From a virus, in the IMG/VR virus record IMGVR_UViG_3300031578_000284, positions 1 through 26,654 of that record: 26,654 bases of DNA. One strand, given 5' to 3'. Positions 5,155 through 26,654 of the stretch are shown here, piece by piece. How positions within the stretch are numbered: position 1 is the stretch's first letter; every line of letters begins with the position of its first letter. The translations under genes and the position numbers were made by a program. The notes under the pieces are model-generated. The model was not told the origin of the DNA, did no database searches, and worked only from the letters and a program-made list of their open reading frames with translations.

Positions 5155-7344
5155 ATGGCGATTAATACAACCTTCAATGGTGCCACAATTTTTAAACCTG
5201 GTGCCTATTCAAAGACTAACATCGATTTGGGTGGTGGTTTTCCAATTGGGCCAGCTGGTCTGATTGCAGTTCTAGGTGAGGCCGACGCTGGTGCTCCTGG
5301 TGCTACAGAAATCAATATCGCAAACAATCGCTTCACTGCCGATCAATTAGTCTCCATCAGAAATAAATATAGAACTGGACCAATCGTTGATTCAGCCGCA
5401 TTCTTGTATGCTCCTGCTGCAGATGCCGCAATTCCTTCTGGTGCCCAAACAGTTTGGTTTTATAAAACCAATGCTTCTACTCGAGCAACACTAGCTCTTG
5501 CCAACTCTTATGGAACAATACAGTCTGAAGAGTGGGGAACTGGTGGAAACAGAGTAACTTATACTTCTACCCTTATTGCAGAAACACCTGCTTCTCAAGC
5601 TGGTACAGCTTTTGACGAAAGTGCTATGGCCGGTACTGAAAGCTTCACACTAAATACAAATGGTGGAGCTCCTAATACTTTTACATTATCTGGTATACCT
5701 GCGAATAATGCAGCTCTTGCTGCAGATCTTGCTCTTGCTGGTAACTGGTCTGCTGGTCTTCCTGCTGGTATGACTATTACAGTGGGTGGTGTAGATACTG
5801 CCTCAACTGTAACTATTACTCAAACTGCAAGTCCAACTGCTAATCAAAACGGCTATGGACGTTCATTTGAAATTTCTGGTGCAACCGCTTCAGCGTTTGG
5901 TTTAACAGCTTCTTTTGAAGTTCCAAATATCGAACCAAGTGCAACTATTACTGTTGAACAAAAAAGAGATGGTACAAGCGAATCAGAAGAAGTTGGTGGA
6001 AACGTTATTTTTACTATCGGACACGATGGTACTGGCGATCCAACAGATGCAAAAGTATCTATCACCGACGATAAGATTGAATTAAAAGAAGGTGGTGCTG
6101 TTGTATATACCTTCCTTAAAGATTCATTCCCAGTTCTTACAGATCTTGTAGCTGAAATAAATTTAGCCACATACGCTGGTTGGAGTGCTTCTATTACAGA
6201 TGCAATCTACAATCAATTAAGCCCAAATTCATTAGATCAAGTTACTAATATCGGTGCTTTATCTGCTAGTGGTGAGGAACCAGCTCGTCTTAAGAAAGAT
6301 GCTGATGATGTCGCAGCTTTCTTCGAGTTATCTTCTACAGCAGATATTATTTCTCAATCTAATACTGGTCTCCCTAATGCTATAACTGAAACCCCTCTAG
6401 CTGGTGGTGCTCGCGGAGCAACAACTCCTGCTGATATCGTAGCTGGTCTTGAGAAGTTTCAGAAATTCCATGTTAACTCAGTGTTGCCTCTTTTCTCAAG
6501 AAATGCAACAGATGATATTGCTGACAGTTTAACCGATTCTGGTTCAACATATACAATCGCTGGTATTCACCAGGCAATTAAGACTCATTTATCTCTTATG
6601 AAAACAACTAAGAAGAGATCAGAGCGTCAAGGTTACCTATCTTATAAGGCAAGCTTTGCTGATTCTAAATCACAAGCTGGTGTTATGGCTGACGGACGTA
6701 TCCAAATGGCAATTCAAGATACTAGAAATATTGATTCACAAGGAACTATTAAGTGGTTCCAACCTTGGGCACTTAGCTGTCTATTGGCTGGTGCACGTGG
6801 TGGAGCTCCAATTGGTGAACCTTTAACTTTCAAATTCTTGAACTGTTCGGGTATCCGTCATACCGCACAACCAATGTCTACCGCTGAAGAAGATATCGTA
6901 ACTGATTTCGATCCAGATCTTCAGACAGATGAAGCAATCCAAGCAGGCATAACCTTCATGGAAGCTCCACAGTCTGGCGGATTCAGAGTTGTCGTAGATA
7001 ATACTACTTATGGACGCGATGGAAACTTCGTATTCAACCGTGCCAACGTACTGTATGCTGCTGATATTGTAGCATTCAATTTCCGAAACACAATGGAGTC
7101 AGTCTTCGTTGGTCGAAAGAATACAGTATCGGTTGCCGACGTTGAAGGCGTTGCTTCTAGTATCCTAAGTACATTCTTAGCTCAAGGCGTTACAGTAAGT
7201 ACAACTGATGCCCCTCTAGGGTTCAAGAACCTTGTCGTTCGGATTGAAGGTAATACTATCTTTATTGAAGTAACAATTAAGATAGTTGAAGGTATTGACT
7301 TTGTTCTAGCGGATATCACTATCCAGCGTGCGACTCAGGGATAA
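5155..7344 (+). CDS. Contractile tail sheath protein (729 aa)
   Basis: AGGAGG lies seven bases before the ATG. The N-terminus (KPGAYSKTNIDLGGGFPIGP, then a short strand and GEADAGAPG) is typical of myophage sheath proteins. So is the C-terminal domain from about residue 610: YGRDGNFVFNRANVLYAADI, then NTMESVFVGRKNT, then a strand-rich tail, which interlocks neighbouring subunits. Residues about 155-350 form a threonine- and glycine-rich beta insert of the surface-domain type. The sheath surrounds the tail tube in the extended virion and contracts to drive the tube into the cell. The protein is longer than many sheaths (roughly 450-660 aa in well-known phages), mainly through the middle insert. 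A strong terminator follows at once, and the tube gene comes next. Confidence 0.93.
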   Translation: MAINTTFNGATIFKPGAYSKTNIDLGGGFPIGPAGLIAVLGEADAGAPGATEINIANNRFTADQLVSIRNKYRTGPIVDSAAFLYAPAADAAIPSGAQTVWFYKTNASTRATLALANSYGTIQSEEWGTGGNRVTYTSTLIAETPASQAGTAFDESAMAGTESFTLNTNGGAPNTFTLSGIPANNAALAADLALAGNWSAGLPAGMTITVGGVDTASTVTITQTASPTANQNGYGRSFEISGATASAFGLTASFEVPNIEPSATITVEQKRDGTSESEEVGGNVIFTIGHDGTGDPTDAKVSITDDKIELKEGGAVVYTFLKDSFPVLTDLVAEINLATYAGWSASITDAIYNQLSPNSLDQVTNIGALSASGEEPARLKKDADDVAAFFELSSTADIISQSNTGLPNAITETPLAGGARGATTPADIVAGLEKFQKFHVNSVLPLFSRNATDDIADSLTDSGSTYTIAGIHQAIKTHLSLMKTTKKRSERQGYLSYKASFADSKSQAGVMADGRIQMAIQDTRNIDSQGTIKWFQPWALSCLLAGARGGAPIGEPLTFKFLNCSGIRHTAQPMSTAEEDIVTDFDPDLQTDEAIQAGITFMEAPQSGGFRVVVDNTTYGRDGNFVFNRANVLYAADIVAFNFRNTMESVFVGRKNTVSVADVEGVASSILSTFLAQGVTVSTTDAPLGFKNLVVRIEGNTIFIEVTIKIVEGIDFVLADITIQRATQG

Positions 7345-7490: not shown

Positions 7491-8054
7491 ATGTCAGGAA
7501 TGAAGCCAGGTTTTATTACCGGCGCCAACGCGAGAATTAAACTGTTTGGAAAGACTCTCGCTTATTGTGCAGATGTTAGTTATAACGTAACCGTTCAAAC
7601 TATTCCAATTGAATCAATTGGTAAATATGAAGTTCATTCAAATGAACCTGTTTCATATTCAGTAGACGGAACCTTTAGTGTTATCCGTTATACAAATAGT
7701 GCAAACACTGCAAAAATCAAAGATGCAAAAGATGGTAAGGGCAATGCACCTAAAAATATTGGTGACAATGACAGTAATGCTCAGAGTCATCTTGATCCAG
7801 GTCAAATTTTAGTATCACAAACTTTTGATTTAGAGATATTTCAAAAGACTGGTGCTGGGCGAGATACTACTGTTCCTACTACAGATCAAAAAGTTGCTAA
7901 ATTAAGAGAGTGTCGCTTGACACGTCGTGGTATGACTTTAAACAAGCGTGGTGTTATCGTTGATAATTACGCATTTGTTGCAATTTATATGGACGATTCA
8001 GATCTTGGTGATAGCAATGCTGTTGGTCCAAGTGGACAAGAAGATCTAGCCTAA
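7491..8054 (+). CDS. Tail tube protein, first of three paralogues (187 aa)
   Basis: AAAGGA lies eight bases before ATG 7491. The position right after the sheath, the small size and a strand-rich sequence (GFITGANARIKLFGKTLAYC, DVSYNVTV, SVDGTFSVIRY) fit a myophage tail tube protein, which polymerises in hexameric rings inside the sheath. The next gene shares its N- and C-terminal motifs: TG.NA.I, KT.AY, D.SY.VTV, IRY, LR.CR and YMDD. It is the shortest and least elaborated of the three and has its own probable promoter, so I take it as the main tube subunit. A loop at residues about 72-100 is glycine/asparagine/aspartate-rich. Confidence 0.8.
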   Translation: MSGMKPGFITGANARIKLFGKTLAYCADVSYNVTVQTIPIESIGKYEVHSNEPVSYSVDGTFSVIRYTNSANTAKIKDAKDGKGNAPKNIGDNDSNAQSHLDPGQILVSQTFDLEIFQKTGAGRDTTVPTTDQKVAKLRECRLTRRGMTLNKRGVIVDNYAFVAIYMDDSDLGDSNAVGPSGQEDLA

Positions 8055-8071
8055 TAACGGGAGTTCGTTAT
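8054..8071 (+). promoter_or_regulatory. Hairpin displaying the ribosome binding site of the second tube gene
   Basis: ATAACG (8054-8059) pairs perfectly with CGTTAT (8066-8071), leaving GGAGTT in the loop. The loop holds the Shine-Dalgarno bases, and the stem contains the first two bases of the ATG at 8070. The stem begins at the last base of the upstream TAA, so a ribosome finishing the first tube gene would open it. This suggests coupled and limited translation of the second gene; that is inference. Confidence 0.5.
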
Positions 8072-8756
8072 GGGTAAGGTACCATTTTTCCTTACTGGTG
8101 GTAACGCCAAAATAATCCTCAACAATAAGACGGTGGCATATGCCACCGACATCTCTTACACGGTGACCGTTAATCACGCGTCACCTCGTGTATTAGGTCG
8201 TTTTGAAGTAGAGACTATTCAACCATTAACTTATGATGTTGAGGGAAGTTTATCAATAATAAGATACGGTCGTGGACTAAATAAGTATCTTAATAAATAC
8301 GCTCCTAAAGATACAGCAGATAAGGGGAATAGTATTGGTAGTTATGGACCACCCGGTATAAACTTAAGTAGTTTGGGTTTGCCAAATGCTAGTGGGCAAT
8401 TTGATGGTGGAGCTGACGAGAACTTTAATCCTGTAAGATTTTTTCAATCTAAAATGTTCAATATTGAAATTCGTCAAAAACTACCCATAATTGCGCCTGG
8501 TTCTGCTGGAACTGGATTTTTAGATCAAGCAAAAGCAGCAGCTAGAGCAGTAGATGATATTCTTCTTAGAAACATAACATCTCCCGGTCCTGGAGAAACA
8601 TCTGTAGTTTTGTTAAGAGATTGTAGGTTTACAAGTTTAAAATTTGATTTAACAAAAACAACTGCAGCTAGACAAACTTATACATTTAAAGCACGATATA
8701 TGGATGATGATACTAACATCTCGGCTAAATCAGGTGTTGGACAGGAATTAAGTTAA
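8070..8756 (+). CDS. Tail tube-like protein, second paralogue (228 aa)
   Basis: The start is ATG 8070 behind GGGAG, 15 bases after the first tube gene. It aligns by eye with that protein at both ends: FLTGGNAKIILNNKTVAYAT / DISYTVTV / FEVE..QPLTYDVEGSLSIIRY, and LRDCRFT...YTFKARYMDDD. Between these it carries a longer, glycine-rich insert at about residues 85-170. In T4 and in contractile injection systems, extra tube-fold proteins form the tube initiator or the ring that joins tube to baseplate or neck. One of those roles is likely here, though mixed tubes are also possible. It overlaps the next gene by one base (TAATG). Confidence 0.65.
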   Translation: MGKVPFFLTGGNAKIILNNKTVAYATDISYTVTVNHASPRVLGRFEVETIQPLTYDVEGSLSIIRYGRGLNKYLNKYAPKDTADKGNSIGSYGPPGINLSSLGLPNASGQFDGGADENFNPVRFFQSKMFNIEIRQKLPIIAPGSAGTGFLDQAKAAARAVDDILLRNITSPGPGETSVVLLRDCRFTSLKFDLTKTTAARQTYTFKARYMDDDTNISAKSGVGQELS

Positions 8757-9388
8757 TGGGTAAAATAGATAATGCTTTTACTAAACAAGGTACTGTAACT
8801 GGTGCAAGTAGTGCATTGACTGAACAACTTTTTAATAGTGCCTTTGGTGCACTATCTCCATTAAATAATTTCGGTAGATATTTAACTGGTTCACGTTGCA
8901 TTATCAAAGTAAATAATAAACTTTTCGGTTTTGCTTTTAAAGCATCTTATAATATAAGCACACTTCAAGAAGAAATTTGGACTATAGACGATTGGACTCC
9001 ATGGGAACTAGCTCCTCAAAGAGTTATGGTTACTGGAACGCTTGGTATGTTTCATATTCCAGGCAAAGGTCCGGCAAAAGAGTTAGTTCAACCAAATGTT
9101 CTCTCTTTTTTACACCATAAGTATATTACGATAGAAATTCGTGACCATATGACTGATCAGGTTATATTCAAAACCAATAAAGCAGTTATAACCAATAAAT
9201 CACAAACCATCGAAGCAGGTACATTATCTACTATAGAGTTACAGTGGAAAGCTGTTGGCTGGTTTGATGAAATGCAACCAAATTTCCCCGTAGGACACGA
9301 TACTTCGGATGGTGGAGTTGAGCAAGTTGGTAAAGGAAACTTTCTTGATAATGCTGTTGGTGCCGCACTTGATTCTTTTGGTTTTTAA
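8756..9388 (+). CDS. Tail tube-like protein, third and most divergent paralogue (210 aa)
   Basis: ATG 8756 overlaps the previous stop (TAATG). After a 45-residue N-terminal extension, the core LTGSRCIIKVNNKLFGFAFK / ASYNIST / PQRVMVTGTLGMFHIP follows the same order of strands as the other two tube-like proteins: a TG start, the I.(L/V)NNK strand, a SYN strand, then a G.(L/F)...(I/H) strand. Similarity beyond that is weak, and the IRY and YMDD motifs are absent. The C-terminus is glycine-rich with a short helix. Likely a specialised ring of the tail tube, for example next to the baseplate or neck. This gene ends the tube cluster; a probable promoter follows. Confidence 0.5.
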   Translation: MGKIDNAFTKQGTVTGASSALTEQLFNSAFGALSPLNNFGRYLTGSRCIIKVNNKLFGFAFKASYNISTLQEEIWTIDDWTPWELAPQRVMVTGTLGMFHIPGKGPAKELVQPNVLSFLHHKYITIEIRDHMTDQVIFKTNKAVITNKSQTIEAGTLSTIELQWKAVGWFDEMQPNFPVGHDTSDGGVEQVGKGNFLDNAVGAALDSFGF

Positions 9389-10283: not shown

Positions 10284-13174
10284 TGGCAGATAATAACGAC
10301 AATTTTAGAAATATACAAAATCGAGTTGAATCTCTTCTTCAAACACGAAACGAGAGAATGAATAAAACCTCCATTACTGAAGGTCGTATTCTTGATCGTC
10401 TAAAAGAAGAACGCAATAAACTAAATGAATCTTTTAAGAAACTTCGTGAAGCAACTAATAAGAGTGCTGAAGCGATGTTTACTGAAGAATTTGAAAATAT
10501 GCAATCTATTTCTGCTAGAGTTGAAGAAATTCAAAAACTAGCAGATCGTGAAAGCCAAGCTCGCCAACGTGGTGCTAAAAAAACCTTCATGCAATCCATG
10601 AGAACTTCACTCGGAATGCGTGAAACTGCATCTGAAATTTATAATATACAACGATTATCTACTACTCAAGCTGGCTCAATACATGCAGCAGAGAATGTCC
10701 CTACCAGAACTCTAGAAGGACGAATTGCTAAAGGTGAGCGCTTAATTGATAAACAAGGACAGCGGATCTTAGATGCTGCAGAAGATATCGATTCGCCCTA
10801 TGGACAAAAACGATTTCAATCAAGAACAGTTGTTCGCGATCAGTTAATACAACAAGTAGCTAGTGATAAAGCTAATTTAGCAATGCAGCAGCGATTGAAA
10901 TTAGATATTAGTAATAGGGTTGTTAATGCTAGAACAATATCTGGACGAATACAATCAGCCCGCGATAAAGAAGATATAGCTACTAATGTTGCTGCGGGGG
11001 GCGGTGGTTCTCAAGCTAACATGAAAGCAGAACTCGATAAGACTTCTGATGAGTTAATTGAAACTTTCAATAAATTAAAAGAAGCATTCGATGGTGGTGA
11101 TAAATCTGTAGATGAATTAGCGAAATCATTCGATCAATTGTCTAAAAAACATGCAATGCAATCAGAAACTTTAAACCAAATGCAACAACAAGGCATGGGT
11201 CAAGGTTTTGCAGAAAAACTCGCCGATACTTTAGATAAGATTGGCGAAGCTGGAATGATGATTCAAGGTGCTGGTCGTGTTGCTGAATATGGGATGGTGA
11301 CATCTACTCTTAGAAAAAGAGAATTAGGTGCTCAGATGGCAAACATGGCCAATGAGCGGTTTACGGATGCATATGCTGCTGGTAAGGGGGATATGACTGC
11401 CCTTAGAAGAGTATCTACTAATCAGTATGATACTGAAATGAAAAAAGCACTAGAATCAGCCGGCTATATGGACAAGGCTAAATTAGCACAACTAACTGGA
11501 TCTGGTTTGCAAACTGGATCTATGGTTGGTGAAACCCTATATGAAGCTGCAGCTATAGGTGGTGTAGCTAGCGCTTTTACAAGTCCAGTTGGCGGATTCA
11601 CTGCAGCCTATCTATCTGCATCTGAAGAACTAGCTGCAGCCACTCCTATGATGGAATCAACTGCACGACAGGGAATAGACTATTTTAAACAGATTCCACA
11701 AACTGAAACATTAATTCAAAGAAAAGCTATAGAACGACAAGTAGATGTAGCAACAAACTTTATTCAAGATACATCTAGCCAAAAAACATTTGACTACATG
11801 AAAGCACTTGGTTATTCAACTAGAGGATTAGGATCGGGTCGAGGCGGTGTTCAGGACAGTTTTGCTGATTCAAAAAACATATTTGGATTAGCAGGAGTCG
11901 GCGTTGGTATGGACGATATTCCTGGAATAATTGATAATGCAAAAAATGCATTAGGTGCAGAATTTCGTGGTGAAGGTGCATTTGCAGATACTAAGAGAGC
12001 AGGCACATTAGCTAGAGCTGGAATACTTGATTCTCCAGATCAAATGTTTGGATTACGTGGACAACTTTCTGGTGTTGGCGGCAAGCAAGGAGATTTAGAA
12101 ACAATCTTAAGACAAGCCGTTGCTCAAGGCATGGATTCTTCTAAAAACATAGCACAAATGGTAGATGGAGTTACATCTCTATCTCAAAAATCTGCTGCTA
12201 TGGGTATCAATGTAGTTGATGGTGCCAGTGGTGTTATGGGGCGAATGTTTCAAGGATTGAAGGGTACTGATATTTCTGAAAATATGCGTGCCGATGTAGT
12301 TAATAACGCTGCCAATCTTGTCAATAATGCTTTTACAAATAAAGGACTGACAATAGGTACAGTGGTTGAACAAGCTAAGATGAAAGAAGCTTTTCCAAAT
12401 GCTACTGCAATGGAAGCTGAAATAATGAGAGGTTTGACTCCTGCAGAACTTGAAGCATATAAAAGGAATCCTGCATTAGCTAGAAAAAGAGGTTTAGAAG
12501 ATCTCTTACCAAATGAAGCAGCTGTAGATAGGTTGATAGGTGCTTCATCTGCAGGCGCTATGGCTGATATCACTATGGGTGGAACCCTGGATATACAGGG
12601 CGATAGAGCATACCAGAAAAAAATAAGAGGAGAGAAACTAACTTCTGATGAAGCTCGTCGCGCTGATAAGTATATCAGACAAGTTGGTGGACTACATAAT
12701 GTTCGTGGTGAAACCATGGAGAATATGTTTGAGTTTGGTAAGAATGTTACAGAAAAACATATTGATACTAATCTAGATGGTACACCTAGAGCTACTGAAG
12801 CTTTTAATCAAGCTAGTGCTACAGTAGATGCGCAATTATTTAGTAGCAGTGTCAGTAAGTTTGAATCTACTATAGCAGGTTTTAATGCAGTTGGAGAGAA
12901 ATTAATAACTATAGCCAATACATTAGACCCAACACGACTACAAGATGAAACAAAAAGGGCTGTTGATGAGCATGGAATTCCAACTCAACAATCAGGTGCT
13001 GATTTCGATAAATTCCATAATAGTATTACGGGGTTTACTGCAAGCATGAATAATCTAGTGACTCATATAGGTGAAATCTTAGGGAAATATGGTAAGAGCG
13101 GTTATGGACAAACTCCTGGGTCAGGTGTTCTACATCATCCTAATCCAAACCAAAGGAGAGGTCGTGACTATTAA
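10283..13174 (+). CDS. Tape measure protein (963 aa)
   Basis: ATG 10283 overlaps the chaperone stop (TAATG). It follows the frameshifted chaperones directly, is long, and is mostly helical. Residues 1-330 are rich in E, K, Q and R with coiled-coil character. Residues about 330-450 are richer in alanine, glycine and methionine, with a hydrophobic patch (EAAAIGGVASAFTSPVGGF). The C-terminal third contains glycine-rich helical segments. These proteins set tail length at about 1.5 angstrom per residue, which would give at most about 145 nm. They occupy the tube and leave first on infection. No peptidase or lysozyme motif was recognised. It overlaps the hub gene by 11 bases. Confidence 0.85.
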   Translation: MADNNDNFRNIQNRVESLLQTRNERMNKTSITEGRILDRLKEERNKLNESFKKLREATNKSAEAMFTEEFENMQSISARVEEIQKLADRESQARQRGAKKTFMQSMRTSLGMRETASEIYNIQRLSTTQAGSIHAAENVPTRTLEGRIAKGERLIDKQGQRILDAAEDIDSPYGQKRFQSRTVVRDQLIQQVASDKANLAMQQRLKLDISNRVVNARTISGRIQSARDKEDIATNVAAGGGGSQANMKAELDKTSDELIETFNKLKEAFDGGDKSVDELAKSFDQLSKKHAMQSETLNQMQQQGMGQGFAEKLADTLDKIGEAGMMIQGAGRVAEYGMVTSTLRKRELGAQMANMANERFTDAYAAGKGDMTALRRVSTNQYDTEMKKALESAGYMDKAKLAQLTGSGLQTGSMVGETLYEAAAIGGVASAFTSPVGGFTAAYLSASEELAAATPMMESTARQGIDYFKQIPQTETLIQRKAIERQVDVATNFIQDTSSQKTFDYMKALGYSTRGLGSGRGGVQDSFADSKNIFGLAGVGVGMDDIPGIIDNAKNALGAEFRGEGAFADTKRAGTLARAGILDSPDQMFGLRGQLSGVGGKQGDLETILRQAVAQGMDSSKNIAQMVDGVTSLSQKSAAMGINVVDGASGVMGRMFQGLKGTDISENMRADVVNNAANLVNNAFTNKGLTIGTVVEQAKMKEAFPNATAMEAEIMRGLTPAELEAYKRNPALARKRGLEDLLPNEAAVDRLIGASSAGAMADITMGGTLDIQGDRAYQKKIRGEKLTSDEARRADKYIRQVGGLHNVRGETMENMFEFGKNVTEKHIDTNLDGTPRATEAFNQASATVDAQLFSSSVSKFESTIAGFNAVGEKLITIANTLDPTRLQDETKRAVDEHGIPTQQSGADFDKFHNSITGFTASMNNLVTHIGEILGKYGKSGYGQTPGSGVLHHPNPNQRRGRDY

Positions 13175-15029
13175 TCATAGGATAGTCAATCCGGGAGCTG
13201 CCCTTATTATTTGGAACTATAATGAGAGATTGAGTGCTGCAGATAGTAATGCTGCAACTATTAATAAAATAGATGAAGTTATTTTAAACACTGTATCTTT
13301 GATAAGCATGGCTACTAGTAAATCTAAATCTACACCTGCTGGATCTTTCGAATGTAGGCTGGCACCGACTGTAAATTGGACAGCGAGAATAACTCCTGGA
13401 AGTTGGTGTGCTATTCTTATGTCACAAGATCCGCTTACAGCCATTGATAAACATAATGTTGGTAAGGCAGATTCTCGTACACTTAAAATGATTGGACGAA
13501 TTGATGCAGTCCATCAAACAGTAGATGTTAATCAAGAAACAGGGGCTAGGTCGACTGCCTATATTGTTACTGGTAGAGATTGGGGTAGTGTATTTGATAC
13601 ACAACTATATATAGATCCAATTACTAGAAATAATAGTCAAGATTCTCTAGGTCCATTGGGTCATTCTCAGCGTATATTAGCTGACAATATGTTTCTTGAA
13701 TGGGCTGGTGATAAAAAGTTACCATCTAGTTCAGAAATAGTAGATGCTATTATAAATGTATGGGGATCACCTATTTCAGATTTATCAAAAGCATTAAATA
13801 ATGCTGTTAGTAATTCTAATTCAAAATATAAAACGAATAGTTCAAATCCACAAAAATTAAGCGGTGCTTTACAATTATCATCTGAAGCACAATTTAAACT
13901 TCCAAAAGAAGTTGCTAATTATATGCAGGGTTCATCAGGTGGAGCTTCTGTAAATTTTGCTGAAATCATAGATAGACAACATGGGGTATTAGTTAAGCAA
14001 GATACTTACGGTGGTGATCCAGAAGAAGCTCATGGGTATCCAGACCCAGCATCACTATATGGTATGCATAGTTTTTGGCAGGTACTAGTAGACAATTCCA
14101 ATCCTATCCTTTATGAAATGTTTCCAGATATACGTTGGACTGGCGATAAACCTAAATTCACACTATACCATCGCATACGACCATTTGTTAATAGAGCGGC
14201 AAGTGATATTGCTTCAGGAAGTGTGTCAGAGCTGGTATCTCCTTTTAAATATGTACGACAAATTGATATTCCATTAAACGATGTGTTAACTATTAGTTCA
14301 GGCACAAATTGGCGAGATAAGATTAATTTTATTGAACTTCGTCCACAACCACAATTAGTACCAGAACTTTTTCAAGCTGAAGCTAAATTAGAAAGTCAGA
14401 TAATTGATAAACCTGCATATGAACGCGAAGGTTTCAAACCAATGATTCAAGAAGTGTACTACATGCCATATAACGATAAAACACCTGTAGTACTTGCTGC
14501 TATGAAGTGGCGTCATTTAATGAGAGAATGGTACTTCAATACACATATTATGCTGAGTGGTTCTATTAACTTTATTGGACAGGATAAGTATATACAGGTT
14601 GGGGATAATATTAAAATAGATGCTTCTATACTAGGTGAGGGAAAGTTAAGTTCTAGACATGCTAGTGCAACTACTACCACTTACCTATTGGCGCATGTAG
14701 AAGCTATACGTAATAACTTTAGTGTTGATCCTGAGAGTGGTGCGCGTACCTTTATAACTACTGTTAGTTTTGTTAGAGGTGTTATAACTGATGCTAAGGG
14801 AAATCTCATTGGGGCTGGTGGAGGTGGTTCGTCTTTACCAGCAGGTTTACCAAGTGTAGAAACACTAGTTCAGACACACGATACTTTAAGTGATTCACCA
14901 GCTAACACACCGGATGGTGCACTTGATGCACAGGCAAATAAAGCTGCACCTGTTGATAAAAAGAATAGTAATGTATTTGGTACTTCAAATGAAAAAGATC
15001 CAGATATTCAAAAATTGAAGGGTAGCTAA
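13164..15029 (+). CDS. Baseplate hub protein (gp27 / gpD-like, 621 aa)
   Basis: The start is GTG 13164 behind AGGAG, inside the end of the tape measure gene. An ATG at 13089 in the same frame lies deep in that gene and lacks a ribosome binding site. After an N-terminal strand region, residues about 55-155 contain FECRLAPTVNWTARITPGSW, then IGRIDAVHQ, then TAYIVTGRDWGSVFDTQLYI. This is the pattern of the first beta-barrel of baseplate hub proteins (T4 gp27, Mu gp44, P2 gpD). The C-terminal part has a SGSINFIGQDKYIQVGDNIK stretch, also hub-like, before a glycine-rich linker and a disordered tail. The hub forms the trimer at the baseplate centre that holds the spike, which is encoded next with a TAATG overlap. 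Confidence 0.75.
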   Translation: MTINHRIVNPGAALIIWNYNERLSAADSNAATINKIDEVILNTVSLISMATSKSKSTPAGSFECRLAPTVNWTARITPGSWCAILMSQDPLTAIDKHNVGKADSRTLKMIGRIDAVHQTVDVNQETGARSTAYIVTGRDWGSVFDTQLYIDPITRNNSQDSLGPLGHSQRILADNMFLEWAGDKKLPSSSEIVDAIINVWGSPISDLSKALNNAVSNSNSKYKTNSSNPQKLSGALQLSSEAQFKLPKEVANYMQGSSGGASVNFAEIIDRQHGVLVKQDTYGGDPEEAHGYPDPASLYGMHSFWQVLVDNSNPILYEMFPDIRWTGDKPKFTLYHRIRPFVNRAASDIASGSVSELVSPFKYVRQIDIPLNDVLTISSGTNWRDKINFIELRPQPQLVPELFQAEAKLESQIIDKPAYEREGFKPMIQEVYYMPYNDKTPVVLAAMKWRHLMREWYFNTHIMLSGSINFIGQDKYIQVGDNIKIDASILGEGKLSSRHASATTTTYLLAHVEAIRNNFSVDPESGARTFITTVSFVRGVITDAKGNLIGAGGGGSSLPAGLPSVETLVQTHDTLSDSPANTPDGALDAQANKAAPVDKKNSNVFGTSNEKDPDIQKLKGS

Positions 15030-17133: not shown

Positions 17134-18723
17134 ATGTCAAGAACTGTAGTAGCAGCTGGTTTCAGCAGTTTAGCAGATCTTAGTCTGTGGTATAAGACTA
17201 GATCTGGAGCTCCTGTAACTCTTGCTGAAATACCAGAAATAATAAAACTTCGTTGGGAGTATTTCCGCGATAACTGGGAATTTATCGTAAACGACCTTAA
17301 AGATAAACGATCATCATTCTCTCATCCTGATTTGCTAGATAAACAGATTGAAGATTTAACACGATTGATAACTGTACAGAAAAATAGTCAGAATCAGACA
17401 GTTAATCCATTCTCTGACAGTAGAGTAATAACACATTTTTACACTGTATGGCAGAATGTAGAAGCTTCTTCACTCCCTATAACTAAAGAAGAAAACACTT
17501 TAATATCTCGTAGAGTATTAGCTGCTCAACGTTTTATTAAAACTGATTTTATTAATATGCGAAACAATATGATTAATGCTAGAGATAGTATGGCTGATGA
17601 TGTTGGACTATCAGATAGCACATATAACACTATATTTGATAGAAGCTCTTCAGCTACTTTACGAAATGTCAATATTAAAGACATTAACAATATGCAAAAT
17701 TTCCAGCGAGCCATTAAAACAGTAGATTTTATATTAGCTAACACTGGCTCATTGAATACTGTAACTATAGATCCATTTGCTCTTGCTAGAGCTAATGCTA
17801 AAAATGATGAAATAGAGATTGTAACTGGTCGATCTGGTCGATTAGTGCGAATGTTTTTCGGTGATAGTTTGCAGGATTTAGCTTCGAGGCATTTTGGAAA
17901 TCCAGATCGTTGGATAGAAATAGCTATAGCAAATGGTCTTAAGCCACCATATGTAGATGAGATAGGTCAAGCTATTCCTGTAATAGCTAATGGTGATGAC
18001 AATCAGTTGAACTTTGGAGCCCTAGATGGTTCAGGTAACGCTAATATAAATAAACTATATATTAATCAGGTAATTTTTATACAATCGGATACAGTTAAAT
18101 TCCCTGATCAAAGATCTATCTTAAATATTAAAGAGATACCGATTTCTGGTGAAATTGTGCTAGAATTCAATGGGAATAATAATTTAGATATATATAAACT
18201 TAATGAGAATGCTCACATTAGGGTATTTAAACCTAACACTATTAATAGTAATTTCTTAGTGTTAATCCCCTCTGAAGAGCCAATATCAGCTAAGAAACCA
18301 GGTGATGTTCCGTTTTTCTTAGAGTCAGCCGCAGAAGATGAAAAGCTAGCAGGAGTAGATTTACTGTTAAATGACAATCTTGATTTGACTTTTACATCCA
18401 CTGGAGATCTACAATTAAATTTTGGACTACCTAATGCAGTTCAGGCAATGCAGATTAAAATGTTAAGTGAACAAGGACAAAGCCATAGACATCCTAATTT
18501 TGGACTACCTGTGGTTGTAGGTACTAGAACTACTGATCCAAATACAGTTAAGCAGGCACTCGTAGCAGGTATAACTAATATGGTAGAGTTAGATGAACGC
18601 TTTGACAGAATAGAAACCCTACAAGTGGGTGTTTTAAATGGAGCTGCTAGTATTAATCTAGTGGTTAGAATGGCAGGCTCTGGTACGCTAGTTCCTATAA
18701 GTTTCACGATTAACACAGGTTAA
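17134..18723 (+). CDS. LysM-like + gp25-like baseplate wedge fusion (529 aa)
   Basis: ATG 17134 follows the previous stop directly, with no clear ribosome binding site of its own, so it is probably coupled. Residues 1-220 are mainly helical and of unknown type. Residues about 227-319 look like a LysM-type segment: FFGDSLQDLASRHFGNPDRW, then EIAIANGLKPP, then LYINQVIFI. Residues about 409-529 match the gp25 / GPW wedge family: GDLQLNFGLPNAVQAMQIKM, then SHRHPNFGLP, then DERFDRIETLQV. In T4 gp25 is a separate small protein that seeds the first sheath ring, and LysM-type proteins join tube and baseplate in several contractile systems. Combining both in one chain is consistent with a core baseplate role. 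Confidence 0.75.
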   Translation: MSRTVVAAGFSSLADLSLWYKTRSGAPVTLAEIPEIIKLRWEYFRDNWEFIVNDLKDKRSSFSHPDLLDKQIEDLTRLITVQKNSQNQTVNPFSDSRVITHFYTVWQNVEASSLPITKEENTLISRRVLAAQRFIKTDFINMRNNMINARDSMADDVGLSDSTYNTIFDRSSSATLRNVNIKDINNMQNFQRAIKTVDFILANTGSLNTVTIDPFALARANAKNDEIEIVTGRSGRLVRMFFGDSLQDLASRHFGNPDRWIEIAIANGLKPPYVDEIGQAIPVIANGDDNQLNFGALDGSGNANINKLYINQVIFIQSDTVKFPDQRSILNIKEIPISGEIVLEFNGNNNLDIYKLNENAHIRVFKPNTINSNFLVLIPSEEPISAKKPGDVPFFLESAAEDEKLAGVDLLLNDNLDLTFTSTGDLQLNFGLPNAVQAMQIKMLSEQGQSHRHPNFGLPVVVGTRTTDPNTVKQALVAGITNMVELDERFDRIETLQVGVLNGAASINLVVRMAGSGTLVPISFTINTG

Positions 18724-18731: not shown

Positions 18732-21700
18732 ATGGCCGTAGATATAAAAAGCTATAATGAGATACTAGGCGAAATGGTTCGTAAGGTGATTGCTGATTCA
18801 CCTGTAAACGATGTCAATACTGGATCTGTTCTATTAACCTTACTGGAAGCAGCTGCTCAAATCGACTTTGAGAATAATGCTTCTGTTCTTAATATTTTAG
18901 AATTATTAAGTATCGACGCTACTCGCAATAACGATCTAGATTCTAGAGGAGCCGACTTTGGACTCAATAGAACTCCAGCTCGTAGAGCTACTGGCTTTGT
19001 TACTATTACTGATACCAATATAACTAAAAAGTCTACCGGTTTATATCAAGTAAAATTGCCACCTATCGCTGGCTCTACACAGATCTTCGTTAATGATGCC
19101 TCAGACTGGACAACTCTATCTCTACCCGTAGGCATTCCAGTTGTCGTAGCTGGTAATCTATTCATCGGTCGTGGTACGCCGAATTTCGAAGGCCCAATTC
19201 CTTATACAACAATAACCAATAATACAACATTTTATACTATTGGTTTAGGTGTTGCACTTGAAAAAGATCATCTTATATCTGACACCGTTATAGATGGTCA
19301 GGGAACTACAGATAGATTAATTGTAGCAGGAACATCAGTACAGATACCTGCAAACAATCAGAACCCAGCAATAGAATATGAAATTCTACGAGATGCTGTT
19401 ATTCCGGCTGGCGAAGATACAGTAGGAAATGTGGATATTATTGCCACTTCTAGTGGTACTCAGAGTAATGCCGGCATAAACACAATTACAACTTTTATTA
19501 GTGATCCATTTCCCGGTGCAGCAGTGTCAAATACAACTCCGCTAACCAGTGGATTAGATGTTGAGTCTGATGACGAATATAGAGAGCGTATCAAATCATT
19601 CTCTAGTACACTAGCACGAGGTACTAAGCAAGCAATCTTGTCATCTGTCATAGGTGTATCAGATCCAGACGACGGTAAACAAGTAGTATCTGCAGTTATC
19701 ACTGAGCCACCAAGTATCGGCGATCCATCAATATTATATTTAGATGATGGGAGTGGATTTGAACCATCTTTTACTGGCCAATCAGTAGATATTTTATTGA
19801 ATGAAGCAACTGGTAATGAAGAGTTCTTACAACTTGCAAATTTTCCTCTACCTAGACCACAAACTATAAATACAGTTGAAGGTCCTTATGAGATAACTGA
19901 GCAAATGCAACTTAGAGTGTTGGTAGATGGAATAGAAGAATCTATTTTATTCACTGCATCTCAGTTTAGAAATATTGCTGCTGCAACTATATCTGAAATC
20001 ATCATTGTTATAAATGATCAAGCACAATCTTTTAGAGCAACTTTTACCGCCAATTCATCACGAATCCTATTGTTTCCTTTAAATCATGAGGCGGAAACAA
20101 TCCAAGTTTCTGCTTTAACGCCTGGTGAGGATTCTTCGCTATTTGCAAATAATGTTTTAAAGTTTCCAACAAATGAATTCTCATATATTCGTTTATATCA
20201 AAATAGAACTTTATTAAATGAACGTGAACGAGCAGCAACACTATTAACAAACTTGTTCTCAACATGGAGCATCGTTGGTAATGGTAATATTATAATTGAA
20301 GTTGATGGTACACCTCCACAAAATAGAACTTTCACAACATCTGATTTTGGCGGATCTCCATTTCCTACACTTGAAGTAGGAGATTGGGTTACTGCGTTCA
20401 ATAATAAATTTGCAGGTATTACAGCTACAGCTACCTCAAGTGGAAGAATGCAAATAGTCTCCAATAGAGAAGGCAACAGTTCTTCATTGAAGGTTATTGG
20501 TGGTTCATATTCTGATTCTATATTTGGTGATCAAAATACTGAAGTAACTGGTAGAAATTCTGATTTCCAATTAAATCGTCAAACTGGGAATGTTCGTATC
20601 CTTACCGATATTGAGTCTGGAGATTCAATAGCAGCTGGAACTGAGGATGCTAAGGGTAGTGTAACATCTGCCACTACTCCTACTGGTGTTTACAATGTTG
20701 GTACGGATTCAAATAGTCGTCCAGCAAATCTTATAGTTGTCGCTGATTCTAAAGAAGTTGTTCTCCGTGTTGGTGTTGGTATTGCAATTGGCAATACTAT
20801 TACCGTAACTGATGAAGGTAGCGATACCATGAGACTTACATCAGATTCAATATCAGCATTTAATACTGTGCTTGCCGGTGATTATCTATTTATAGCAAAT
20901 CGCGGTGCTTTAAGCCCATGGATAGATCCTGCTAATACAGGATTGTTTAAAATAATTTCTAAAGGTGAACATAGTCCAACTACACCTTCTACATTTTACA
21001 TAGAAGTTAAAAACGTTAATATAGTACCTGGTGCTCATGTAGTTGAAGCATCTGAAGATATTCAAGCTTTTAGTGCATCTTCATACCCGCAGCTTTGGAA
21101 GGGTTCTTTCTTAGTTACACCAGCTTCTGCTGCAGTACAAGACATTGTTGACTCTATAGATGAAAATCTAGTTAACGTAGATGCTAGTATATTTAAAACA
21201 AACGCAATACAAATTACGTCCAATACAGAAGAAAATGGAACTATAGCTACTGCAGCTGGTTCTGGTAATGCTCTTGCACTATTTCCACTAGCTGGCCATC
21301 AAACTGGTAATGAATCGCATATTGCTAATAGAACAGCTAATAAAGATTTTATAGCTTATTTTAAGCGTACAACTCCAACAAGCGTAGATGCTGATGGTGT
21401 TACAGGCAAAACTGTATGGTTGGACCGTGTTACATATAGTGATATAAATGGATCATTTACGGACAGTATTGAGCCTGGTGAAGATGGTGTAGATACATAT
21501 AGTGAAGAGTTGGAATCTACTGGTGTACTATTACAACCTCTTGTAGATTACAGCGATATAGTGAATTTCCTAGATGGATCGAATAAGGGACAATATAGAG
21601 CTATTCGCGATATACTTATTGGCGATAAGGTAGGAACTCAGCACGCTTTGCCTAGAACATTGATGGATGTTTCTGCAGGTGAAGAATTTAATTTAATGCG

Positions 21701-24700
21701 ACCACTTTCTATTAGTCCAGATGATAGCATTGTATTCATACTTGATCAAGATGCTGTTGCTAAAACTATAGATGTTAGAATGTCTAGAACAGGTCAAATT
21801 AATTCAGACTTTCCTCCTACTACATTATCATTCTCTGCCGATGATGCAGATAATGAACCAGGAATTACATTTGGTAATCTTCAAGTTTGGGGCAAAGCAA
21901 CAAACGGTACTGAGTTTGAGGATTATGCTGTATGGTTTCGTGCTAGAAACTGGTATGTCTCTGGAGGTGCTGGATCTGGCGGCGGTGCTCTAATGATTCG
22001 TGCTTCGGAATATGGTCCTCATGGTGAAAATATCCAGTTTCAGATAGAGTACCCAGAGACATCTGATGAAGATAATTCTATATTCCATGTAAACAATCCC
22101 GACTATTCACGTGTAACATATGTATTTGGATCTGGTCCTGAAAAACCAATAGGCGAAACATCAGGCGATACAATAGCTATTACAGATGTTTCAGGTTCAT
22201 ATCCTACATATCCAGCTGGAACGGTCTTTAGATATACATTCAATAATACTCTAGCTCTTGGTTCTGTTATTGCGGGAGATATTCTAAGTGTTCAAGCAGG
22301 ATCGGGTCTAACAGCAGCTAATTCAGGTGTATTTAGTTTATTAGCTGTTGATGATAGTTCAGATTATGTAGAACTCTATAATCCAAATGGTGCAACAACT
22401 TTTGTAGGTACTCAAGAAGTTACTCAAGTAGATACAGTTGACGATATTCTTGGTACCCCTGAAATATATTCAGTAGATGTTAACGGTCTTGGCGGTGCTG
22501 CAGTTGATGGTTTGTATTTCATAATTGAAGATACAGCTGGTACTGTAGCTATCTGGTTTGATACTGATGATAACGGTACACCAGAACCTGCTCATGGTGC
22601 TGCAAGATCAATAGAGATTAATCCAGCAGCGGCTGCAACATCTAGTACTGTAGCTACACTAATCGCTGCAGCTATAACATCTGATTCAGAATTTTCTTCT
22701 AGTTCTGGTGGTGATGTTGTAACTATAACAAATTTAAGTAATGGTAACCTTGGTGCATTAAATCTTGGTACATCTGGTTTCTTAGATAATGGTGGAACTA
22801 ACGGTTCACCAGATACGTCACTAGACGGTACCTACTTTATTCTCCAGGATCAAAATGGTAGTGTTGCTTTTTGGTATGATACTTCTGGTATTACTCCAGT
22901 ACCTCTACACGGTGCAGATCGTGCAATAGAGATCACCACTGTACTATCAGGTGATTCTGCAGCAACAGTAGCAACTAAAACAGCAGTCTTTATTGTTGCT
23001 GATGCCCAATTTGTATCTGCAACAGTTTCAACTAATGAAATAACAGTTACAGATGTTACAAATGGTGTACGACCTGCAGCTAGTGCTGGTACAACAGGTT
23101 TCACAGTTACTGAAGTTACTCCAGGTGTTGATGATATTTTTGAAACAATCATAACACCAACAGCATTCTCAATGTATTCTCTAACTGGCACAGCAGTTAC
23201 TGATATTGTTTCAAAAGTAACTGAAAGTCCGCTTCTTGTTGCTGCATTGATAGATGGTACTAGCCCAATCACACTTGCAACACGCGATGAAGTATATACA
23301 CCAGTTGGTCCTGCAGATTTCAGTGCATCACTATCATACGACCATGATCCTGATCCTATCTCTACTAAAAATGATTACATCATACTTGTTGATAGTCAGT
23401 CTTGGATTAAGGATTTCAATAATTTAGATCCACACTTTACTTTAAAACGAGATATGGTTTTACATGGTGAAGCACCTCTAGCATATAGTGTAGATACAAC
23501 ACCAAATGAAGATGGCTCTACAGGTGAATACTTTAAATTAACACCCGTAACTTTAAATAACACACTTCATCACTTTACACAAAAAGCTCTTTCACAGCTA
23601 CCTATTGTATCTGATATTAGTATCTCTAATGCTATTAGAAGAATTCAAATTAAATCTAAGTTACTTGGTTCACAAGGAGCTGTAGAGGTAGTTGGCGGAA
23701 ATGGTAATGATATTGAATATTCAATATTTGGAGAAGCACAAGTAACTCCAGGACCAGTTTCGGGCGGCAATTTCTTACAGGTTAAAACTCGTGCTCTACC
23801 TGTTGCTCTTACAACTGGTGATATTGTTGAAGTTCAAAATACAAAAAGCGTAAAAAGAAAATCTAGATTAGGTAGTTCCGATAGTATTGATGTTGTCCGT
23901 GGTGGCGGCAATGATACAGAATACAAATGGAACCATAAGGATACAGCACTTAGTAGTGTTGTTAGATTTACAATAGCAGATGTATCTGCAACATATGTAC
24001 GTCCAGCTGGCACGGTATGGCGCTGGACTCATAATGATGGCGGCTCATACTTCAATATAACTGATGATACAGTTGGCGTAATTGTAGGTGCATCTCCCAG
24101 TGATCAATTAGAAGATGATTCAGTTGATGCTCCAGCACTTGAAATAGATACGGTGGATGCTGGTACTGCATCTACTGCACAAAACTTTAGATTAACTGTA
24201 AATGCTTTACCAAATCAAGCAGATTATTATTATTTTGAAAATCAAGCGGGAACTGTTTCATTCGCAGTATGGTTTGATATTGATGCAGCAGGTACTACAC
24301 CAACTGGTGCATTGTATACTGGTGCGACCCATCAAATTGAAGTAGATATTTTATCTTCTGATACTGAAGATGCAATTGTGTCAGCCCTAGCAATTACATT
24401 ATTAGGCAATGTTGACTTCCTATCTGAATTTGGTGGCATACAGGAACAAGGTGCTAATCTTGATGATGTTGTTGAAGGCGATCTCTTGGTTGCATGGGGA
24501 ACTTTTCCTGCAACTTGGAATAGTGGTAATAAGGCAAAATTAAATGGTAGTGGTGCTGTCGCAGGTCTTCCAATAATTGCAGTTAATGCAGCCAGTCGAT
24601 GGGTTGACGTTGTTAACTCTGATGGTGTTGCTATGACTGATGAATTTATTGGTACTGGTAATGTAGATATTACTCCATCTCCTATTGTGAAATGGGATTT

Positions 24701-26303
24701 AGCCCATGCTGCAAAAGCCCAAGTTGTACAGGGTACATTAGTGGGATCACCAGGTGGAACAGTAACATTACAGACTGCCTCTCCTCATAAACTCCGTGAA
24801 GGTGATACTTTCACATTAAGTGATAATGGATTAGCACAATCTACTACTGTACTATCTGTAGTAGATCCACAGACTATTACTTTTACTGACACTCTTGGTA
24901 CAACCCCAGATGCTGTATTTCCTGCTGGTAATATAATTAATTCTAGCAAGACAACTACAAGATATAAAATAGAATCAATAGGATTCAATGATCTGTATCG
25001 CTTGTCTTATGTTGATGGTGAAGCTCCACGTTTTGTTGACAATGGTATAGCAGTTGATGATGTCATGGTTATTCAAGGAACTACGTTTGCCAATAATAAT
25101 TCTGGTGAATTTAGAGTATTGGCAGTTGATAATGCTAGCATTATTTATCAAAATGAAGTAGCAGTTGAAGAACTCAATACAATTATTCCTTTCAACAATC
25201 TTGAACTAACAGCAACATGGACATCTAATGTAGATGAAGTTACTGGTTTAGCAGGAACATTCAAAAATCTATCTATAGGCGATTGGATAAAGAAACCTGA
25301 AGATGATGAAACTCTATTTGTTCAAGTAACTGCCTTATTAGATGCTGGTGGATTGCCAGTTGCGAGTACATTAGCAACACGAGTAGTTATCGGAAAGAAT
25401 TACGAAGGAACCTCATCTACATCAGTAGGTATTGCTCTTGATCAAAACAGTGGCATTGGTACAGGTAATTATTTACAGAGCGTTAATGATATAGAATTTT
25501 TTGAAGGTGATTCAGTACGAATTGGGGATAAAATCTTCGTAGATGATATTGCTAACCCTAATTGGTTTTCTTCTCAAAACAGTGGAACATTTGAAATTAC
25601 ACAAATCGGTACCGATTCAGGATATAGGCCGTTTGTGCGTATTGAAAATGCTGCTGGACTTACAGAATCAAATCAACTTATATTTGTAGCTCCTCTTGGA
25701 TACTTTATTTTAGAGGGTGATAGCAATCTCTATAAGAGTGTTAGAGTTATTGAACATAGCGTAATTGATAGTTTTAATCAAGATCGAAGACAACTATATA
25801 TGTCACCGCCAACAAGGGTTGACAAGATGTCTCAAGCTAATGGAACTAAAATAGTACCCATTGGTAAACTAGATTATTCTAAAGATATTGTTACTGGCAT
25901 AGATGGGTATACTTACTATACCGGCTTACTTAGAACTGTACAGCGAATAGTAGATGGTTTTGAACCTGATCCTGTTAGTTACCCTGGCAGAAGAGCTATC
26001 GGTGGCATTATTGAATCACTTCCACCGCTTATTAGACGTGTTATTGTTTCTATAGAAGCTACAACAAATGAAGGTGTTAACCTTAATGAAATTAGTAATG
26101 ATATTAAATCAGCTATTATTACGTATATCGATAATTTAGGTGTTGGTGAAGATGTGATTTTATCTGAAATGATAGTAGCAGTTATGGATATAACTGGTGT
26201 TGAAGCTGTTACATTTAGTATACCTTCACCAAGTACAGAGCGTATATCTATAGCAGATAATGAAAAAGCGTTTATTGAACCAGATGACATTAGTGTAGCA
26301 TAA
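18732..26303 (+). CDS. Giant J-like baseplate wedge protein with large repeated insert (2523 aa)
   Basis: AAGGA lies six bases before ATG 18732. The N-terminal part (1 to about 350) begins with the wedge-type helix (IDFENNASVLNILELLSIDA) and contains SDDEYRERIKSF and RGTKQAILSSVIGV (about 278-310). The C-terminal part (about 2390-2523) has RRVIVSIEATTNEGVNLNEI and LGVGEDVILSEMIVAVMDIT. Both ends fit the J / Mu gp47 / T4 gp6 wedge family, which rings the hub and is usually about 300-700 aa long. Roughly 2000 residues lie between the two ends, rich in T, S, D, G and N, with several repeated beta-type domains. It has one continuous frame with no stop. It overlaps the next gene by TAATG. The insert probably decorates the baseplate and may contact host, fibres or neighbours; that is inference. 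Confidence 0.8.
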   Translation: MAVDIKSYNEILGEMVRKVIADSPVNDVNTGSVLLTLLEAAAQIDFENNASVLNILELLSIDATRNNDLDSRGADFGLNRTPARRATGFVTITDTNITKKSTGLYQVKLPPIAGSTQIFVNDASDWTTLSLPVGIPVVVAGNLFIGRGTPNFEGPIPYTTITNNTTFYTIGLGVALEKDHLISDTVIDGQGTTDRLIVAGTSVQIPANNQNPAIEYEILRDAVIPAGEDTVGNVDIIATSSGTQSNAGINTITTFISDPFPGAAVSNTTPLTSGLDVESDDEYRERIKSFSSTLARGTKQAILSSVIGVSDPDDGKQVVSAVITEPPSIGDPSILYLDDGSGFEPSFTGQSVDILLNEATGNEEFLQLANFPLPRPQTINTVEGPYEITEQMQLRVLVDGIEESILFTASQFRNIAAATISEIIIVINDQAQSFRATFTANSSRILLFPLNHEAETIQVSALTPGEDSSLFANNVLKFPTNEFSYIRLYQNRTLLNERERAATLLTNLFSTWSIVGNGNIIIEVDGTPPQNRTFTTSDFGGSPFPTLEVGDWVTAFNNKFAGITATATSSGRMQIVSNREGNSSSLKVIGGSYSDSIFGDQNTEVTGRNSDFQLNRQTGNVRILTDIESGDSIAAGTEDAKGSVTSATTPTGVYNVGTDSNSRPANLIVVADSKEVVLRVGVGIAIGNTITVTDEGSDTMRLTSDSISAFNTVLAGDYLFIANRGALSPWIDPANTGLFKIISKGEHSPTTPSTFYIEVKNVNIVPGAHVVEASEDIQAFSASSYPQLWKGSFLVTPASAAVQDIVDSIDENLVNVDASIFKTNAIQITSNTEENGTIATAAGSGNALALFPLAGHQTGNESHIANRTANKDFIAYFKRTTPTSVDADGVTGKTVWLDRVTYSDINGSFTDSIEPGEDGVDTYSEELESTGVLLQPLVDYSDIVNFLDGSNKGQYRAIRDILIGDKVGTQHALPRTLMDVSAGEEFNLMRPLSISPDDSIVFILDQDAVAKTIDVRMSRTGQINSDFPPTTLSFSADDADNEPGITFGNLQVWGKATNGTEFEDYAVWFRARNWYVSGGAGSGGGALMIRASEYGPHGENIQFQIEYPETSDEDNSIFHVNNPDYSRVTYVFGSGPEKPIGETSGDTIAITDVSGSYPTYPAGTVFRYTFNNTLALGSVIAGDILSVQAGSGLTAANSGVFSLLAVDDSSDYVELYNPNGATTFVGTQEVTQVDTVDDILGTPEIYSVDVNGLGGAAVDGLYFIIEDTAGTVAIWFDTDDNGTPEPAHGAARSIEINPAAAATSSTVATLIAAAITSDSEFSSSSGGDVVTITNLSNGNLGALNLGTSGFLDNGGTNGSPDTSLDGTYFILQDQNGSVAFWYDTSGITPVPLHGADRAIEITTVLSGDSAATVATKTAVFIVADAQFVSATVSTNEITVTDVTNGVRPAASAGTTGFTVTEVTPGVDDIFETIITPTAFSMYSLTGTAVTDIVSKVTESPLLVAALIDGTSPITLATRDEVYTPVGPADFSASLSYDHDPDPISTKNDYIILVDSQSWIKDFNNLDPHFTLKRDMVLHGEAPLAYSVDTTPNEDGSTGEYFKLTPVTLNNTLHHFTQKALSQLPIVSDISISNAIRRIQIKSKLLGSQGAVEVVGGNGNDIEYSIFGEAQVTPGPVSGGNFLQVKTRALPVALTTGDIVEVQNTKSVKRKSRLGSSDSIDVVRGGGNDTEYKWNHKDTALSSVVRFTIADVSATYVRPAGTVWRWTHNDGGSYFNITDDTVGVIVGASPSDQLEDDSVDAPALEIDTVDAGTASTAQNFRLTVNALPNQADYYYFENQAGTVSFAVWFDIDAAGTTPTGALYTGATHQIEVDILSSDTEDAIVSALAITLLGNVDFLSEFGGIQEQGANLDDVVEGDLLVAWGTFPATWNSGNKAKLNGSGAVAGLPIIAVNAASRWVDVVNSDGVAMTDEFIGTGNVDITPSPIVKWDLAHAAKAQVVQGTLVGSPGGTVTLQTASPHKLREGDTFTLSDNGLAQSTTVLSVVDPQTITFTDTLGTTPDAVFPAGNIINSSKTTTRYKIESIGFNDLYRLSYVDGEAPRFVDNGIAVDDVMVIQGTTFANNNSGEFRVLAVDNASIIYQNEVAVEELNTIIPFNNLELTATWTSNVDEVTGLAGTFKNLSIGDWIKKPEDDETLFVQVTALLDAGGLPVASTLATRVVIGKNYEGTSSTSVGIALDQNSGIGTGNYLQSVNDIEFFEGDSVRIGDKIFVDDIANPNWFSSQNSGTFEITQIGTDSGYRPFVRIENAAGLTESNQLIFVAPLGYFILEGDSNLYKSVRVIEHSVIDSFNQDRRQLYMSPPTRVDKMSQANGTKIVPIGKLDYSKDIVTGIDGYTYYTGLLRTVQRIVDGFEPDPVSYPGRRAIGGIIESLPPLIRRVIVSIEATTNEGVNLNEISNDIKSAIITYIDNLGVGEDVILSEMIVAVMDITGVEAVTFSIPSPSTERISIADNEKAFIEPDDISVA
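22480..22800 (+). repeat. Insert domain repeat A, copy 1, in the giant wedge gene
   Basis: This encodes AVDGLYFIIEDTAGTVAIWF, then DTDDNG, HGAARSIEI and a helix before VVTITNLSNG, at about residues 1250-1357. The order DG.YF..(E/Q)D..G.VA.W(F/Y)D, then HGA.R.IEI, then a helix, then a V(V/T)IT strand recurs at 22805-23130 and in diverged form at 24120-24440. It is a protein-level tandem repeat; the DNA copies are clearly diverged. Confidence 0.7.
22805..23130 (+). repeat. Insert domain repeat A, copy 2, in the giant wedge gene
   Basis: This encodes LDGTYFILQDQNGSVAFWYD, then HGADRAIEI and a helix before EITVTDVTNGVRPAASAGTT, at about residues 1358-1467. It follows copy 1 directly, so copies 1 and 2 look like a tandem duplication that has diverged. 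Confidence 0.7.
24120..24440 (+). repeat. Insert domain repeat A, copy 3 (diverged), in the giant wedge gene
   Basis: This encodes QADYYYFENQAGTVSFAVWF, then DIDAAG, ATHQIEVDI and a helix, at about residues 1797-1903. The YF.NQAGTV.F.VWFD core matches copies 1 and 2. It appears to sit inside another repeated domain (see findings). Confidence 0.6.
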
Positions 26304-26654
26304 TGGCCAATAATAAGAACAAAACAGATCGATTACATGACCAGATGCCGCGTTTTTTAAAGACGCGTGCAAATCCTAACTGGCAAGCACTTATTGGTGC
26401 ATTGGGTGAATCAGATCAAAATCTAGCTGACCTTGTAGAAGAAGTTAGAAAGCAAATGTTTATTAAGACAGCTAGTCGACCATACCTAGATAGATTAGGA
26501 TCGAACTTTAAAGTGAGTCGACCACGCTTTGTTGGCATGAACGATCCTACTTTTAGAAAGTACGTTCCAATATTAGCATATCAGCCTAAACAAGTAAAGC
26601 TAGTATTAGATTTACTTTTAGATGTTTTCTTTTTTAAAGAATCCACAACTTCAT
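26303..26654 (+). CDS. I / gp7-like baseplate wedge protein, 5' part (runs off window)
   Basis: ATG 26303 overlaps the stop of the giant wedge gene (TAATG), and 117 codons are open to the window edge. The sequence begins with a basic stretch (MANNKNKTDRLHDQMPRFLK), then NPNWQALIGALGESDQNLAD, a helix, QMFIKTASRPYLDRLGSNF and RPRFVGMNDPTFRKYVPIL. The pattern 'mPrfL...npnWqaLi...g..D...l...v..q.fi.TAs...LDrLG...g..RP......D..fRky' fits tail protein I / Mu gp48-type wedge components, which normally follow J. The C-terminal part is not in the window. Confidence 0.7.
   Translation, partial: MANNKNKTDRLHDQMPRFLKTRANPNWQALIGALGESDQNLADLVEEVRKQMFIKTASRPYLDRLGSNFKVSRPRFVGMNDPTFRKYVPILAYQPKQVKLVLDLLLDVFFFKESTTS

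Follow-up and report, generated by a model that had tools for sequence, protein, structure and literature searches.

In contractile tails the iris is made of J-type proteins, and edge-attached fibres are usually credited with recognition. A viral fragment of 26,654 bases, the whole of which is called the window here, encodes a J-like protein several times longer than a wedge subunit such as Mu gp47. The question raised by this locus is what the additional residues in such a protein do. The giant J open reading frame is real and intact: 2,523 uninterrupted codons run from an ATG start to a TAA stop, an AAGGA box lies 5' of the ATG, the next ORF shares one base with the stop codon (TAATG), and the GC content of the gene is 37.6% against 37.7% for the window. 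The gene sits in a contractile-tail gene cluster that includes the following.

5155-7344, tail sheath, 729 aa (phrog_279, 5.6e-27)
17134..18723, plus strand, upstream gene, baseplate wedge subunit like phi812 ORF61 (9euf_L, 4.3e-8; phrog_975, baseplate)
18732..26303, plus strand, giant J-like baseplate wedge protein, 2,523 aa (about 270 kDa)
26303..26653, plus strand, downstream gene, baseplate protein, cut by the window end (phrog_1160)

The presence of a tail sheath gene identifies the phage as contractile-tailed. We read the upstream gene as LysM plus gp25-like domains. The gene preceding it matches phi812 ORF59 and thus, together with the match to ORF61, the gene order resembles that of phi812. 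The downstream gene is a probable third wedge chain.

Other ORFs in the window have features of their own. With 729 aa against a 489-position family profile, the sheath probably carries an extra domain. Within the structural gene cluster, positions 1803-3359 encode a 518-aa protein with a GTG start and a NUDIX domain (1.8e-19), a stretch that is also matched by one PHROG named portal protein. Three adjacent related genes at 7491-9388, of which the first two are 32% identical (1.9e-25) and the third is weakly similar, have weak virion-structural matches and are possibly several tail-tube paralogues. The start of the ORF at 13089-15029 overlaps the end of a 963-aa ORF by 86 bases, and a later in-frame start is possible.

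Against PHROGs, the N-terminal part of giant J matches the wedge family phrog_6 (2.3e-26). Pfam Baseplate_J (PF04865) matches residues 191-291 at 40.3 bits (curated cut-off 21.1), and the score is 49 bits when the first 348 residues are searched alone. A profile built from 8 homologues picks up the solved J proteins of phi812 (9euf), phiCD508 (9g8s) and diffocin (8v3w) through two separate stretches of its own numbering, about 175-291 and about 2366-2458. The counterparts of these stretches in the solved structures are separated by only some 60 residues. Below, W n denotes residue n of the window's giant J protein. AlphaFold models covered W 1-1135 (89 sequences, mean pLDDT 85.6) and W 1362-2523 (41 sequences, mean pLDDT 78.3, with about 1470-1660 poorly predicted). 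The model of W 1-347 aligns with J of phiCD508 (Z 15.1), with residues 4-243 of Mu gp47 (Z 11.9) and with T4 gp6 (Z 8.4), and also with J of A-1(L), phi812 and Milano. The Z scores of these matches run from 15.1 to 8.4 and the rmsd from 5.8 to 19 A, which is high because several domains shift relative to each other. The model of W 2431-2523 aligns with the C-terminal domain of phi812 J (Z 11.1, rmsd 1.8, 87 residues), with Mu gp47 277-359 (Z 10.3) and with T4 gp6 (Z 9.4), and its matches to many J chains span Z 8.1-11.1. A Foldseek search of the 1,162-residue C-terminal model against the PDB returned no match below E 0.001; VIA gave usable domain matches, and folds missing from the match lists may nevertheless be present. 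Profile matches and predicted folds show the ends of giant J to be the N- and C-terminal halves of a wedge protein of the J/gp6 type. The first-pass annotation had assigned both ends to the wedge family, and in the models both fold as J domains. The protein divides into three parts.

18732..19772, plus strand, N-terminal J part, residues 1-347: helices, wing and trifurcation-type beta region
19773..26021, plus strand, insert, residues 348-2430, about 2,083 aa (VIA alignment ranges at both ends)
26022..26300, plus strand, J C-terminal (dimerization-type) domain, residues 2431-2523 (structure match)

There is a single insertion, and it takes the place of what lies between residues 243 and 277 in Mu gp47. 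Thus, about 33 residues in Mu correspond to about 2,083 in giant J, and the earlier proposal that some 2000 residues are inserted between wedge ends is borne out for W about 348-2430. Mu gp47, diffocin CD1371, phi812 ORF62, phiCD508 gp65a and T4 gp6 have the same N- and C-terminal J domains but, at about 350-660 aa, lack a comparable insert.

The giant architecture is conserved in over 100 relatives. Two IMG/VR scans and one prokaryote-genome scan, with duplicates removed, yielded at least 118 distinct full-length homologues of 1,837-3,881 aa, each in a single frame and from independent contigs; the filter required frames of at least 1,500 aa spanning both ends and may therefore miss shorter relatives. 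Among the homologues listed, 48 are nearer the window's giant J and 70 nearer that of the Myxococcus phage Mx1. Seven loci are collinear with giant J over its whole length at 49-62% identity. In the cultured-phage collection only the Mx1 homologue is collinear with giant J, and in the plasmid collection no homologue was found. One 2,946-aa homologue (L086) comes from a contig that was binned with a Mariprofundaceae genome, which may hint at the host or be an accident of binning.

These relatives bear on whether separate genes were fused by a sequencing or assembly error, an explanation to which we give almost no weight. Apart from the unusual length, its one point of support is a broken copy in L059 (7971-19603), split near residue 855 into two frames, yet the near-identical copy in L039 is intact. 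In the first homologue set, for which frames of at least 300 aa were listed, all shorter matches other than this broken copy were cut by contig ends. The middle is otherwise kept in one frame among the relatives, one of which belongs to the complete genome of a cultured phage, and the collinear alignments run through its whole length. Assembly or frame error is thus ruled out for giant J by the single-frame homologues.

Profile self-comparison of the insert (hhalign) identified three beta-domain families in at least 10 copies, which together cover about 900 residues.

19857..20117, plus strand, type C repeat, copy 1, residues 376-462 (hhalign)
20235..20501, plus strand, type C repeat, copy 2, residues 502-590 (hhalign and structure match)
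20775..21086, plus strand, type A repeat, copy 1, residues 682-785; site of Kelch (W about 769) in relatives
22149..22448, plus strand, type A repeat, copy 2, residues 1140-1239 (hhalign self-comparison)
22497..22811, plus strand, type B repeat, copy 1, residues 1256-1360; DUF3494/propeller site (W about 1338-1357) in relatives
22815..23129, plus strand, type B repeat, copy 2, residues 1362-1466 (hhalign)
24213..24425, plus strand, type B repeat, copy 3, residues 1828-1898; L039 insertion site near W 1857
24414..24701, plus strand, type A repeat, copy 3, residues 1895-1990 (hhalign self-comparison)
24951..25181, plus strand, type A repeat, copy 4, residues 2074-2150
25500..25727, plus strand, type A repeat, copy 5, residues 2257-2332

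The strongest pair is type B copies 1 and 2 (hhalign probability 99.8%, 4.7e-28), and the type C pair is weaker (82%). Since no tandem DNA repeats were found in the gene, the repeats of giant J are old protein repeats. The middle had been described in the first-pass annotation as repeated beta domains rich in T, S, D, G and N. Beta domains are present and some of them repeat, but the repeats extend over the 900 or so residues above and not over the whole middle. The claimed richness fails as a feature of the insert, where these five residues make up 41.5% against 41.8% in the N-terminal J core, and we therefore discarded composition as a sign that the insert is special.

For two of the repeat types the models show structural resemblances. 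Model region 375-483, which contains type C copy 1, aligns with flagellin (Z 9.6), and copy 2 aligns with XM1 chain 7kh1_A6 (Z 11.8, rmsd 2.3, 104 residues); the predicted type C fold resembles an extra domain of contractile sheaths and D2-D3 of FliD, the flagellar cap. A type A barrel modelled at W 1995-2072 is similar to the FCCH domain of ubiquitin-E1 (Z up to 9.2) and to residues 425-507 of endosialidase K1F (Z 8.5). We treat the FCCH and K1F likeness of the predicted barrel as a lead only and, with matches of only Z 8.1-9.2, a glycan role is a guess. No catalytic family was matched in giant J by Pfam, PHROGs or NCBIfam, and the insert may still have an enzymatic function.

The same domains occur in neighbouring genes. 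In full-length relatives of the downstream gene, a type C domain (E down to about 1e-14) comes directly after the first 125 or so residues, which parallels J, where type C directly follows the core. In Mu and diffocin, each wedge combines two J chains with a third chain (PMC11915804, PMC10996793). Combined with type C in the downstream chain, this composition suggests that each wedge could carry three type C stalks in parallel. The insert shares domains of type C, A or B with the downstream wedge gene and with some of the fibre-type genes, and large separate fibre-type genes lie downstream of J in relatives.

Among relatives the insert is highly conserved at its two ends; conservation reaches its minimum, with gaps, in W 1150-1550 and 1750-2100. 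In pairs of close relatives the dN/dS of the insert is mostly 0.04-0.24, from equal to the core value to about twice that value. By this measure the insert is under purifying selection in the relatives, as would be expected from a purely structural role too.

At fixed positions in the insert, relatives also carry complete additional domains: propellers of the Kelch and FG-GAP kinds, and DUF3494 domains of the ice-binding type. The clearest case is L042, which differs from L062 by an extra 217 aa flanked by sequence that is 67% and 64% identical. The addition is a DUF3494 domain (Pfam 1.7e-38; antifreeze protein 6eio, 1.5e-32) placed between L062 residues 1349 and 1352 (W 1353-1357). Compared with L088, L106 has about 340 aa with Kelch repeats at W about 769. 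Compared with L068, L039 has about 1,500 aa near W 1857 that comprise FG-GAP repeats (Pfam 2.4e-100) and additional copies of type B. L067 carries a different propeller-like stretch near W 1282-1357, with a weaker match (PF03478, 1.9e-7). Kelch is found in 15 relatives, 4 of them by Pfam (20 proteins scanned) and the others by alignment, and the Kelch group arises once in a tree built from the J core. On the same tree the presence of DUF3494 requires four changes, and the domain is found at differing J sites in L174, L154 and L042. DUF3494 turns up outside J as well, in ORFs of about 500-1,400 aa that in some cases also contain type B domains, and a 166-kb viral genome (L174 and L184) has it both in J and in another ORF. 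Further loci in the DUF3494 set are L169, L170 and L172 (J or separate ORFs, some beside type B). No DUF3494 was found in the cultured-phage collection. In the window's own giant J, Pfam recognised no ligand-binding domain, and none of the relatives' plug-ins is present. A binding role for this particular protein thus rests on its relatives.

Giant J-like proteins are already known under automatic names. The Mx1 homologue (WNM70274.1, 'baseplate protein J-like protein', 1,925 aa) is collinear with giant J and 26-27% identical to it overall, with 37% over the J N-terminal part; it is about 600 aa shorter and without much of W 1750-2240. Mx1 itself has been cultured and has a contractile tail of 100 nm (PMC6070905), and we found no functional study of its giant J. 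The gene after J in Mx1 (L010 20769-23717) is annotated as a kelch repeat protein, which places propellers in both wedge-region genes of the giant-J family. Three UniProt entries from uncultured Caudovirales phages, A0A6J5KUV1, A0A6J5L250 and A0A6J7WUL1 (about 2,377, 1,854 and 2,612 aa, split in two in BFVD), are also homologues. The first is 51% and 42% identical to giant J in its two halves. Their name, 'Baseplate protein J-like', is automatic, and their insert architecture is undescribed in the resources searched. The open-access literature, which leaves most subscription journals outside the scope, yielded no description of giant J proteins, of Kelch or DUF3494 in baseplates, or of the modular nature of the J insert.

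The closest precedent of the insert is Alg11 of AlgoCIS, an injection system, whereas giant J comes from a phage. Alg11 is a J homologue whose insert contains two carbohydrate-binding modules with a proposed attachment role (PMC8894135). Its massive extension is a spike cage that opens on firing (PMC8894135; PMC13314943), formed by residues 278-643 (PMC8894135), so that an insert of 365 residues compares with about 2,083 in giant J. Alg11 residues 110-892 align with only W 30-347 (206 residues aligned). From these alignment ranges, the Alg11 cage appears to lie within the N-terminal J part, and the giant J insert, which follows residue 347, appears to lie elsewhere in the fold. By the same ranges, giant J has no cage domain within its N-terminal J part of the kind found in Alg11-type spike-cage proteins.

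We favour, with moderate confidence, the explanation that giant J is a J/gp6 wedge protein of a contractile-tailed phage in which a linker has grown into a modular, surface-binding beta arm of about 2,083 residues. The linker would be the one that joins the trifurcation-type region to the C-terminal dimerization domain. As in Mu or diffocin, the J ends would make up the wedge ring, and each arm would loop outward from the ring and then return, with its conserved ends proximal and its variable middle distal. The arm would be exposed and would touch the surface of the host (glycan, capsule, S-layer or pilus) as a supplement to binding by separate tail fibres, and could relay the signal of binding directly to the contraction-triggering wedge. 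Ligand-binding-type domains at fixed sites in relatives are best fitted by a receptor- or surface-binding arm. The second shell, skirt and fibre-docking surface suggested in the first-pass annotation stay conjectural, as does its supposition of six copies or six dimers. The insert is thus probably an adhesive arm built into the baseplate. Counting against this reading, the separate fibre-type genes downstream may encode the primary binders.

Two other roles for the insert were weighed against the adhesive arm. It could be mainly architectural, forming a shroud or outer ring whose task is to shield the spike or to keep the baseplate locked before firing. The Alg11 cage provides a model for such a device, and all full-length members listed have at least 1,837 aa, which implies that most of the insert is never lost. 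We nevertheless consider this unlikely: giant J appears to carry its insert at a different point of the J fold than the Alg11 cage, and interchangeable propellers and DUF3494 domains would be unexpected in a tightly packed cage. It is also rather improbable that the insert serves to dock separate tail fibres or other peripheral proteins without being an adhesin itself. Lateral contacts could be mediated by the domains that the insert has in common with the downstream wedge gene and with some of the fibre-type genes, but this sharing may reflect merely a common domain pool, and the whole ligand-binding-type domains are plugged into J itself.

If the adhesive-arm explanation is true, the giant-J family offers a natural example of a wedge protein that accepts whole-domain plug-ins at fixed sites. 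It would be a second case, evolved by another route, of what AlgoCIS achieves with Alg11, and would tie surface binding to contraction in a way that can be tested. Mx1, in culture and with a homologue of 1,925 aa, makes giant J open to cryo-EM and genetics. More tentatively, and short of an even chance in our judgement, J itself may be an adhesin throughout this widespread, almost uncultured myophage family, in which exchangeable propeller, ice-binding-type and other modules would be set into the giant arm and host recognition would be wired directly into the contraction trigger.
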